DNA of 38,785 nucleotides from a virus. The stretch covers positions 1 through 38,785 of the IMG/VR virus record IMGVR_UViG_3300028024_000194; one strand, given 5' to 3'. Of the stretch, positions 17,834-21,043 are shown piece by piece (the first letter of the stretch is position 1; every line of letters begins with the position of its first letter). The position numbers were made by a program, and so were the translations under genes. The notes under the pieces are model-generated. The model was not told the origin of the DNA. It worked only from the letters and a program-made list of their open reading frames with translations, and did no database searches.

Positions 17834-17966
17834 TTATATTTTTATGCATATCATGATTTACAGTGATATTACATCTCATATCGAATCCGTTAGATTCTAA
17901 TATTTTAAGAACTCCATTTTCTTTAATTTCTGCAACAACTGTTAAAGGTAATACTATCTTTTTCAT
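17808..17966 (-). CDS. Small conserved phage protein after the large terminase
   Basis: A 52-residue protein starting MKKIVLPLTVVAEIKENGVL, a beta-hairpin-like opening, and ending in VYEQEGD. The ATG overlaps the stop of the large terminase (TAATG). GGAGGGTGGAATTA within the terminase end is a strong ribosome site, so it is coupled to terminase. Function unknown. No cysteine pair or membrane helix. Confidence 0.75.
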   Translation of the reverse strand: MKKIVLPLTVVAEIKENGVLKILESNGFDMRCNITVNHDMHKNINVYEQEGD

Positions 17967-19480
17967 TAATTCCACCCTCCATTTATGTAGCTATCATCAA
18001 CTTCTATTGGATCGAATATATCATGCTTAGGTCTCTCACTTGGGAAATTGTAATGCTCGTCTTTTTTCGATTTACCAGTTACCCTATACTTCACATATTC
18101 AGCTAAACCCGTTACAGCATCTGGAGCATCATCATGCTTATTTTTACCTAGCTTGATATAAGAGGTTAAAGCTCTCATAAACTTGTCATAATCGCTTCCA
18201 GGTAAATAGTCATTTCTAAAATAGAAATATTCTTTGATATATCCAGCATTCATAAGAATTCGTGTTTCTTTATTCTGCGTAGTTGGTTCGTCAATTACCA
18301 TACAATAGCACTTGCCTTTAATTAGGTTTCTTACATTTCTTGCATAGCTTGAACCTCCATTATTGCTCTCTATTTTCATGATTTCGCACTTAGTATCTAT
18401 AAGCTGCTGGGCTACTAAAGGTTCTGTAATCTCGACACCATCTTGAGTGAATACCACATCGGTAACATATGTGTATTCGCCAAACTTCTTTCCAATAGGA
18501 CTACATAAGAAGTCTGAGCCTTTGTCTGCTGTATCTGTAAAACCAATAATACCATCAGCTTGTTTAAATACCTTATTACCATCTTTATTTATTGTTTTCA
18601 GTTCTTCTAGCGAAAACCTTTTTAATTCTTCTATAGGATACAATAAACCTTTGCTTTCCACAGGGTGCTGCATGTATTCAGCTTCCCATATAAACTCATC
18701 TGTAACCTTCTTTATAGCCTCATATTCTTTGGTAGTTTTAATCTCTTCACAGAAGCTTTTGCCCTTATCGTCTAAGGCTGCTATATTAATTACTTTGAAG
18801 TCTGGGTTATATTCTTCTGAGTTTTCATCAGTAAGCCTTCCTATTGGGTCTTTCCTACTCCATCTAGTGGCAATATGAATTTCTGGACAATCATTTTCCA
18901 AACGTGATAAATGAGTTGATGTATACCAGTTCCACACGTTTTCAATAGTTGTTTCTGAAAGAGCTTCTTCAATGTTTTTTAAAGGATCATCCAGTATAGC
19001 AACAAGTTTACATCCAAAGCCTGTTATAGCACCACCTACACCAGCACAAAAATAAGAAGGTTGCGTGTTGCCTTCTAAGCTCCAACCATCCACAGCCTGA
19101 TTATTCTTAGATAGTTTCACTTCTGGAAATAGTTCTTTATATTTAGGATAGATTATAATTCCATCTCTAATATCCTTGGAAAATTTTTCTGCAAGCTTAG
19201 CAGCATATGAGTTACGCATTATACTGCCTTTTGGGTCTTTACCAAGCATCCAAGCACAGAATAAAGAAGTTATATAAGACTTTCCAGCTCTTGGAGGTAA
19301 ACTTATTGCAAGCTTCTTAATATTTCCATCTGCAACACTTTGGAATGCATCTGCTATTAACTTCAAATGTTTTTTCCCATGTGTAAAAAATACCGGGTCC
19401 ATGTAAACACAAAACTCGTAGAATATTCTACGAGCTAATTCTTTTTCAAGTTCTTTACGAACATATTCAGCTTTATCCAT
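17966..19480 (-). CDS. Terminase large subunit (packaging ATPase-nuclease)
   Basis: A 504-residue motor. ATPase domain: P-loop SLPPRAGKS (about 60-68), a Walker B VAILDDP (160-166) and the coupling motif IATRWS (203-208). RNase H-like nuclease: D315 in GFTDTADKGSDF, E371 in IESNNGG, and the terminal HDDAPDAV (D451, D454). The P-loop variant PRAGKS and the TDTADKGSDF motif are typical of the Terminase_6 group. It packages DNA with the small subunit at 19650. The ATG follows AAAAGGTGATTA. Confidence 0.97.
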   Translation of the reverse strand: MDKAEYVRKELEKELARRIFYEFCVYMDPVFFTHGKKHLKLIADAFQSVADGNIKKLAISLPPRAGKSYITSLFCAWMLGKDPKGSIMRNSYAAKLAEKFSKDIRDGIIIYPKYKELFPEVKLSKNNQAVDGWSLEGNTQPSYFCAGVGGAITGFGCKLVAILDDPLKNIEEALSETTIENVWNWYTSTHLSRLENDCPEIHIATRWSRKDPIGRLTDENSEEYNPDFKVINIAALDDKGKSFCEEIKTTKEYEAIKKVTDEFIWEAEYMQHPVESKGLLYPIEELKRFSLEELKTINKDGNKVFKQADGIIGFTDTADKGSDFLCSPIGKKFGEYTYVTDVVFTQDGVEITEPLVAQQLIDTKCEIMKIESNNGGSSYARNVRNLIKGKCYCMVIDEPTTQNKETRILMNAGYIKEYFYFRNDYLPGSDYDKFMRALTSYIKLGKNKHDDAPDAVTGLAEYVKYRVTGKSKKDEHYNFPSERPKHDIFDPIEVDDSYINGGWN

Positions 19481-19649: not shown

Positions 19650-20159
19650 TTATTCATTTTTATTTTTAAGCAGCTCTTTAATTTCTTCGGTAGAAAGGCC
19701 AGTAAGATCTAAATTATTATTTAAATTTATATTAGTATTTTCTACTTCCTGCTTCTCCTTCCAACCAAAGTTATTCTTCAGGTTGAATATTACTCCATTG
19801 ACTTGTTCTTTGCGGTAAAGCTGGTCTATGTTATATCTTTCAATTTTTTCTTTCGCGCGCGTAATCGAGTCAGAAAACATTTCTAATTTAGAGTATTCAG
19901 ACCAAGTTTCTTTAGTTATACCTAAGTGAATGCATAACCCCGTAATACTAGGAATTTCTAAATAATATGTTTCAAATATAGGTTCTCTAGCATTATTAAT
20001 AGCTTCAACTTGCTTAGTTATAGGCTTTTTCTTTTCCTCATCTTCATAGCCTATTATGATCGTGTCAAATACTTGTCTAGTTTTGGTTATGCTATTAAAA
20101 TAATGGTCTATAACAACTTCTAATTCTTCTGAAGTTCCAAATGTTCTAGGTCTACCCAT
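19650..20159 (-). CDS. Terminase small subunit, P22 gp3-like
   Basis: A 169-residue protein starting MGRPRTFGTSEELEVVIDHY. The central EIPSITGLCIHLGITKETWS is a helix-turn-helix DNA-binding region. It is followed by KAKEKIERYNIDQLYRKEQVN-type helices and GVIFNLKNNFGWKEK, conserved in the GP3_package family. It recognises the packaging site and regulates the large subunit. The start at 20159 is chosen because AGGAGG lies 8 bases upstream; the ATG at 20165 is only two to three bases from it. Confidence 0.9.
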   Translation of the reverse strand: MGRPRTFGTSEELEVVIDHYFNSITKTRQVFDTIIIGYEDEEKKKPITKQVEAINNAREPIFETYYLEIPSITGLCIHLGITKETWSEYSKLEMFSDSITRAKEKIERYNIDQLYRKEQVNGVIFNLKNNFGWKEKQEVENTNINLNNNLDLTGLSTEEIKELLKNKNE

Positions 20160-20164
20160 AACCA

Positions 20165-20326
20165 TTACCTCCTCTTTAAAGCTCCATGCTCTCTTTTTAA
20201 TGGTTGTCTATCATTACCCTGCATTAAGCTAATCGTCTCTTTTTCTTTACGATATTCTATATAATCTCTACACTTATTTTTGCACTTACTACAAGATGAT
20301 GTTTTATCACAAATTTCAACTCTCAT
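20165..20326 (-). CDS. Small Cys-rich protein leading the late operon
   Basis: A 53-residue basic protein with Cys at 6, 12, 15 and 19 (EICDKTSSCSKCKNKCRDY), a probable zinc knuckle, followed by a charged helix. It is the first gene after the late promoter and terminator, with ribosome site ATGAGGTGAGAATT. The stop is joined to the small terminase start. Proteins like this precede the terminase genes in several clostridial phages. A role in packaging or late transcription is possible but not shown. Confidence 0.7.
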   Translation of the reverse strand: MRVEICDKTSSCSKCKNKCRDYIEYRKEKETISLMQGNDRQPLKREHGALKRR

Positions 20327-20340
20327 AATTCTCACCTCAT

Positions 20341-20376
20341 TAAAATAAAAAAGGCACCTAGTTAATTCTAGGTGTC
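20341..20376 (-). terminator. Intrinsic terminator about 30 nt after the late promoter start
   Basis: On the minus strand GACACCTAG, loop AATTAA, CTAGGTGCC (plus positions 20353-20361 and 20368-20376) form a 9-bp stem with one G-U pair, followed by TTTTTTATTTTA. It lies between the late promoter and the first late gene, so most transcripts from that promoter would stop here unless read-through is induced. Confidence 0.85.
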
Positions 20377-20409
20377 CCTGGGAGGAATTTTATTATTCGC
20401 TATAGCTCT

Positions 20410-20453
20410 ATTATAGCATATATTCTGTCAAATTCACTGCCAACTTTCTGCCA
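20410..20453 (-). promoter_or_regulatory. Late promoter with three phased TGRCAG repeats
   Basis: The minus strand has TGCTATAAT, an extended -10 (plus 20410-20418). Immediately upstream are TGACAG, TGGCAG and TGGCAG (plus 20425-20430, 20437-20442 and 20448-20453), spaced 12 and 11 bp, about one helical turn. There is no -35 at 17 bp. The site is right after the gene for the ArpU-like late regulator, so these are plausible activator sites. Predicted start near 20403. Confidence 0.6.
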
Positions 20454-20470
20454 TCATTTTATTGTATTAA

Positions 20471-20602: not shown

Positions 20603-21043
20603 TCATTTTATAGCATTAATACCATGTAATTGTACTGCGAATACTCTTAAAGCTGTATTTTTGCTTCTATAAAAGTTTCTTTCACTACAGTTAGTATGTT
20701 TATACAAGGACTCTTCTCTTAAGCCATCAATATAATAAGCTCTAAGTATTTTTGCATAATAAGGATCTAAAGCTGCTAAAGTCTTGTCCATCTTTTCTAA
20801 AGTTTTTTTAGTAATTGCATACTCTTCTCTTTTAACTTTAAGTCTATATATATTATTTATAACATCATCACCAGGAAGTTGTGCATTACTTCCCTTTGGC
20901 ATATCAGAATAATTTATTGCACCTATTTTGCCTACATCTAAATTAGATTTTAGCTCTTTAATATCCATTTCTAGATTAATTAGAGACTGTTTTAGACTAT
21001 CATAATTCTTTAAATATTCTATTGTTTCTCTTATATAATCCAT
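20603..21043 (-). CDS. ArpU-like late transcription regulator (sigma-like)
   Basis: A 146-residue protein. The N-terminal half is coiled coil (IEYLKNYDSLKQSLINLEMD), with a middle linker. The C-terminal part has LAALDPYYAKILRAYYIDGL, then EESLYKHTNCSERNFYRSKN, a helix-turn-helix of the sigma-70 region 4 or ArpU type. ArpU-family proteins control late transcription in Firmicute phages. It is the last early gene before the late promoter with three phased repeats, so it is the obvious activator candidate. Ribosome site AGGTGATAAA precedes the ATG. Confidence 0.85.
   Translation of the reverse strand: MDYIRETIEYLKNYDSLKQSLINLEMDIKELKSNLDVGKIGAINYSDMPKGSNAQLPGDDVINNIYRLKVKREEYAITKKTLEKMDKTLAALDPYYAKILRAYYIDGLREESLYKHTNCSERNFYRSKNTALRVFAVQLHGINAIK

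Follow-up and report, generated by a model that had tools for sequence, protein, structure and literature searches.

A probable Ltr-type late promoter followed by a terminator-like hairpin in a phage of Gram-positive bacteria

How are the late genes of this phage switched on, when a predicted intrinsic terminator stands between their apparent promoter and the first of them? The locus lies in viral record IMGVR_UViG_3300028024_000194, whose 38,785 nucleotides were analysed as a whole and are called the window here. A sequence-only reading had described an extended -10, three phased TGRCAG hexamers upstream and an immediate terminator, set between an ArpU-like gene and a late operon. The promoter, repeats and hairpin of that description are confirmed. 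The locus is likely to be a late promoter in a temperate-type Gram-positive phage, under the control of an activator of the Ltr family (ArpU/LtrB/Alt-like). Ltr-controlled late promoters are a known kind; the conserved order of promoter, then terminator, is the less expected part.

The control region in the window

The features are listed in the direction of transcription.

20603..21043, minus strand: ArpU/LtrB-like late transcriptional regulator, 146 aa, pI 8.99 (PHROG 36, E 3e-15)
20453-20448, minus strand: putative activator repeat 1, TGGCAG, at -50 to -45; it co-varies with the recognition helix and corresponds to the family-wide lag-11 repeat
20442-20437, minus strand: putative activator repeat 2, TGGCAG, at -39 to -34, occupying the -35 region
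20430-20425, minus strand: third hexamer, TGACAG, within the conserved TTTGACAG (20432-20425, -29 to -22)
20418-20410, minus strand: extended -10, TGCTATAAT, its TATAAT invariant across the eight-member subfamily
20404-20388, minus strand: predicted start at about 20403 with the initially transcribed segment TATAGCGAATAATAAAA, conserved in the subfamily
20379-20347, minus strand: predicted intrinsic-terminator hairpin and U-run, about +25 to +57, with equivalents in L152, L154, L157 and L172
20165..20326, minus strand: small Cys-rich ORF of 53 aa, read from sequence, directly after the terminator and overlapping the terS start
19650..20165, minus strand: terminase small subunit (terS, GP3_package; Pfam E 6e-19, PHROG 606 E 1.5e-23), the first recognised late gene
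17966..19480, minus strand: terminase large subunit (terL), by domain and family profile matches

On the minus strand, positions 20455 to 20347 read GATGGCAGAAAGTTGGCAGTGAATTTGACAGAATATATGCTATAATAGAGCTATAGCGAATAATAAAATTCCTCCCAGGGACACCTAGAATTAACTAGGTGCCTTTTTT. The hexamers are 11 bp (first to second) and 12 bp (second to third) apart, and the start at about 20403 was placed by the family alignment. The phased TGRCAG triple occurs once in the window and never in 300 dinucleotide shuffles of its full length. When any hexamer is allowed, the window has 41 phased triples and the shuffles have 14-25, which is not significant evidence, so that the weight of the case is carried by conservation. An exact pattern of three repeats plus extended -10 found no match in viral contigs because the repeats vary from phage to phage. 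A scan also returned a sigma-70-type pair (TTGGCA, 17 bp, TATGCT); it was rejected, the conserved extended -10 lying 5 bp further downstream.

The hairpin alone spans about +25 to +54 and is followed by a T-run, with TTTTTT at 20352-20347. The folding energy of the leader hairpin is -14.5 kcal/mol (z -5.3 versus shuffles). Its stem differs from the plain 9-bp stem first proposed: a perfect 7-bp core, CACCTAG/CTAGGTG (20374-20355), extends outward beyond one A.C mismatch by 4 further pairs. A scan of the minus strand from the hairpin to the terS start found neither a sigma-70-like promoter nor a second terminator, and between the regulator gene and terS no terminator-like site other than 20379-20347 was found on that strand. 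The 53-aa ORF carries CxxC-type cysteines, and a Cys-rich ORF occupies the corresponding position in the relative L152.

In an AlphaFold2 model (mean pLDDT 80) the regulator has an N-terminal two-helix coiled coil, folded as a helical hairpin, and a C-terminal helix-turn-helix (HTH) like that of sigma region 4; residues 67-143 resemble the sigma-4 chain 3hug_A with a Z of 8.8 in a fold comparison. Profile matches weaker than that to PHROG 36 include sigma factors and sigma-70 region 4. The match to the ArpU model TIGR01637 has an E of 5e-6 but scores 26.7 bits, under the curated cut-off of 43.1, and that to DUF1492, the LtrB family of late regulators (PMC5601072), scores 21.2 bits, under a cut-off of 21.5. 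Matches to the Q-like PHROG 79 are marginal (E 0.0019 for the window regulator, 0.00094 for that of the relative L001). Neither a Q protein nor the 21Q structure appears among the fold matches listed for the regulator, which shows nothing either way. Annotated phage records gave no match by DNA similarity or by regulator protein.

Close relatives and the wider family

Relatives were collected by a three-regulator profile search of viral contigs, with one more added through a search on the initiation region, giving a subfamily of eight: the window, L154, L157, L172, L155, L152, L159 and L001. Two other initiation-region matches, L169 and L174, were discarded; no regulator-like gene or repeats occur in the surroundings read (for L169, partial). 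Downstream of the relatives' regulator genes the promoter, the repeats and the position of the hairpin are seen again. The promoter is common to all eight; its TATAAT never varies, nor do parts of the initially transcribed segment, and the regulators of most relatives are only about 43-64% identical to that of the window.

The repeats change with the protein. Repeats 1 and 2 read TGGCAG or TGCAG where the recognition helix starts with CSER, and TGTCC where it has Y(S/T)DRH, which argues that the regulator reads these two. At the third position TTTGAC(A) is constant in both helix groups (the window, L154, L157, L152, L159 and L001), and TTTGACA is missing in L155 and L172. Because the third hexamer stays unchanged while repeats 1 and 2 switch with the helix, it is probably not a regulator site. 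All three hexamers first reported are thus present at their 11- and 12-bp spacing, but they are not three equal activator sites. The TTTGACA itself (20426-20432, minus strand) lies 10 bp upstream of TATAAT in six of the eight, too near to be its -35. We also rejected it as a lambda-type -35-like element by a pause site, as that of lambda directly adjoins AACGAT, whereas here 10 bp separate the element from the -10 downstream.

The terminator hairpin starts about 23-26 nt past the start in five of the eight (the window, L152, L154, L157 and L172), with differing stem sequences, and at about +69 in L155. A long stem replaces the simple terminator in L159 and L001, and L159 has an additional terminator at about +104. 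These two leaders (L001:3555-3645 and L159:1952-2035) form a long closed stem, differing in stem sequence around a similar inner motif (AAAGGATG..GA..ATCCC). They are possibly an undescribed structured RNA; that of L001 has no Rfam match.

For a wider view, the DNA downstream of about 100 PHROG 36 genes from Peptostreptococcaceae and other Clostridia was examined. Many of these genes are followed by TGnTATWAT no more than about 130 nt past their end. In 50 divergent phage and prophage promoters, the upstream 57 nt resemble themselves when shifted by 11 bp (lag 11, z 14.7) or 22 bp (lag 22, z 7.0), with no other lag comparable. In the family alignment the lag-11 repeats run from about -66 to a sharp end at -34; the abrupt stop coincides with repeat 2 of the window. 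The repeat sequence varies among phages (TGTCC, TGCAG, TGGACA, GGTACG and others), and among 21 divergent promoters its similarity tracks the identity of the helix with the rest of the protein controlled (partial r 0.33, permutation p 0.001).

Sites in this wider set were found with an iterated matrix; for the key statistics, a second count took sites by their extended -10 alone. A lag-11 block is present in 57% of these sites and in 8.8% of their counterparts elsewhere, and a -10-like TAnnnT 8 bp past the -10 in 64% (against 5%). About 40% of promoters in the set are without a strong 11-bp block. The TAnnnT element is degenerate in the window subfamily, where AGYTAT stands at the family position and there is no clear -10-like pause element. 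With the same matrix, no such promoter could be recognised for most TIGR01637 members from other Bacillota. Most ArpU-type late promoters carry a second -10-like hexamer, TATTRT, which occupies family-alignment index 11-16, counted after the T of TGnTATWAT, and covers the start site 8 bp past the promoter -10.

The order of promoter and terminator is likewise conserved. Of 60 promoters, 34 have a terminator-like hairpin within 150 nt downstream, where shuffles give 3.1 and a control stretch 10 of 60; 16 of the 34 start within 32 nt, and about 43% of the promoters have no hairpin inside 150 nt. The interval from regulator gene to promoter, a smaller target for the scan (2231 versus 9000 nt), holds only 2 hairpins.

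Named phages and characterised systems

The promoter matrix, trained on Peptostreptococcaceae prophages, was applied to named phage genomes as an outside test. Its top genome-wide match falls right after the activator gene in Sfi11, Tuc2009, BK5-T and O1205, and its second match does so in r1t. The late promoter region of TP901-1 likewise scores high, at 17.9 bits. The start predicted there is genome position 13073, reportedly the start site given in the work of Brondsted and colleagues (2001) on Alt. A hairpin directly follows the promoter in Sfi11, O1205, r1t, P7572 and P7151; in TP901-1 and BK5-T several hundred nt of leader, with tRNA-like stretches, come first. Genes for tRNA, or tRNA-like T-arm sequences, lie between promoter and first late gene in TP901-1 (L180:1135-1376), L141 (1047-1121), L106, L197 and L199. 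ARAGORN calls tRNA-Lys and tRNA-Ala in the TP901-1 late leader and tRNA-Glu in that of L141, and calls no tRNA in the late leaders of L106, L197 and L199.

TP901-1, Tuc2009 and BK5-T share with the window a regulator gene directly upstream, 11-bp direct repeats and an extended -10, and in TP901-1 and BK5-T a terminator hairpin precedes the first late gene. They differ in that Alt is merely a distant relative of the window regulator, and the leaders of TP901-1 and BK5-T are long and carry tRNA-like elements, whereas that of the window is short. Alt of TP901-1 binds four direct repeats from -76 to -32 (reported in PMC13123087); the window has two repeats of the family type. The Streptococcus thermophilus phages Sfi11, O1205, P7572 and P7151, whose late regulators are of the ArpU and LtrB (DUF1492) kinds, resemble the window in having the regulator before terS, an extended -10 and an immediate terminator; in the ArpU-type phages 11-bp-spaced direct repeats are readable upstream as well. 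Their repeat sequences are different, and they have TATTAT directly at the start site where the window has GAGCTAT.

The late promoter of Staphylococcus phage phi13 depends on Ltr and on upstream repeats (PMC13123087). The likeness to phi13 Ltr (family IV) and its P23 lies in a late promoter dependent on the adjacent regulator, with direct repeats upstream, a resemblance that for the window is read from its sequence; the phi13 repeats are 18 bp long at -107 to -42, and its Ltr belongs to a different family. The word terminator is absent from the text of that paper.

The earlier parallel with the lambda late promoter holds for the order of promoter and terminator. Lambdoid Q/PR'/tR' systems, 21Q above all, also resemble the window in a regulator with a sigma-4-like HTH and in direct 6-bp repeats: 21Q has a sigma-R4-like fold and binds such repeats (PMC6606751). 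The parallel fails at the position of the elements. Q elements lie between -35 and -10, with 21Q subsites mutated at -21 and -13, whereas the window repeats, at -50 to -34, fall outside that interval and only the third hexamer, which does not co-vary, lies within it (-27 to -22). The window also has no clear -10-like pause element, and the similarity of its regulator to Q proteins is marginal. With Ltr-type promoters the window shares two regulator-matched direct repeats upstream of the -10, 11 bp apart and at the family positions; with Q-type promoters it shares a terminator before the first late gene.

Activation, insulation and read-through

Activation from two sites one helical turn apart, which would stand in for the missing -35, is the likeliest mechanism. 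The regulator encoded just upstream would bind the direct repeats at -50/-45 and -39/-34 through its sigma-region-4-like HTH; both lie on one face of the DNA and cover the place of a -35 element. In this way the regulator would bring the sigma-A RNA polymerase of the host to a promoter with an extended -10 and no usable -35. The late transcript would then meet the intrinsic terminator 25-57 nt downstream, and the same terminator would also end read-through from the early operon. Binding, activation and the efficiency of termination at the window promoter are what we infer from its sequence and that of its relatives. If the terminator stops read-through from the early operon, the late genes must rely on polymerase that gets beyond it. 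Activation by itself gives no reason for a strong terminator to separate an activated promoter from the single operon that it serves.

One version of this explanation, which we give somewhat less than an even chance, is that the hairpin is a leaky terminator of the early operon, outrun by a strongly activated late promoter. The early genes are oriented so as to read into the hairpin, which is the only terminator-like site found on that strand between regulator and terS, and the hairpins of relatives range in strength between -9 and -20 kcal/mol. Against this version, an insulating terminator would cost nothing if it stood ahead of the promoter, an arrangement that is rare (2 versus 34).

The same counts favour an alternative of Q-like antitermination, in which the promoter-adjacent ArpU-type regulator would be loaded on early-elongating polymerase and carry it past the terminator, instead of or besides activating initiation. 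Hairpins precede the first late gene in Sfi11, O1205, r1t, P7572, P7151, TP901-1 and BK5-T, and TAnnnT in the wider family lies where a sigma-dependent pause would need it. AlpA was formerly classed as an activator but turned out to act as an antiterminator; the terminators lie 26 and 54 nt past the start (PMC7969949). This precedent and the likeness of the regulator to 21Q make regulated read-through a serious alternative, although a rather unlikely one. Q, AlpA and GafZ use the interval between -35 and -10, whereas the repeats lie upstream of it and stop at -34, and the window subfamily has AGYTAT where the pause element would be. A TP901-1 fragment of about 99 bp, which should be without its terminator, reportedly sufficed for Alt-dependent activity, a result that points to activation of initiation. 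The leaky insulator is about as likely as antitermination by the regulator, or more so. We regard as doubtful the more general proposal that ArpU/LtrB/Alt late activators may also be sigma-4-like, promoter-loaded antiterminators analogous to 21Q, loaded upstream of -34 and opening a terminator gate.

A function for the leader RNA itself, suggested at first reading, is improbable and found no support. The RNA would be a small one of about 57 nt, or its 5' hairpin would stabilise the late mRNA. The hairpin is stable, L001 and L159 have a different long-stem leader at the same place, and the TP901-1 late leader contains tRNA-like genes. Against this, loop and stem sequences vary among close relatives, with just the position and the terminator form kept, and an Rfam search of the leader in the window and at seven other loci matched no known family. 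Chance assembly of hexamers and hairpin can be dismissed, since generic phased repeats are indeed common in the A+T-rich window but no shuffle gave a TGRCAG triple and the arrangement is conserved in seven relatives.

The feature is the predicted switch for the packaging and structural genes of a Gram-positive phage, and the window is a well-defined addition to Ltr-controlled late promoters. The comparison yields a model of 11-bp repeats that stop at -34, TGnTATWAT, a -10-like TAnnnT 8 bp on and a hairpin terminator, and this model locates late promoters in distant Gram-positive phages. We found no description in the searchable literature of the frequent promoter-then-terminator order. This order raises the question of whether the regulator is an activator or an antiterminator, and of how RNA polymerase passes the stop signal.

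Two minor observations concern other loci. Two regulator-like genes stand in tandem in L172 (500-1549), where they immediately precede the late promoter, and also in L119 and L116. The late leaders of five Peptostreptococcaceae prophages (L085, L088, L074, L128 and L147) share a recurring hairpin such as ACCAGGTGGACATCCCC..CCACCTGG, which belongs to no Rfam family and is followed in most of them by GCAAGT..GGTGCAACTCC.
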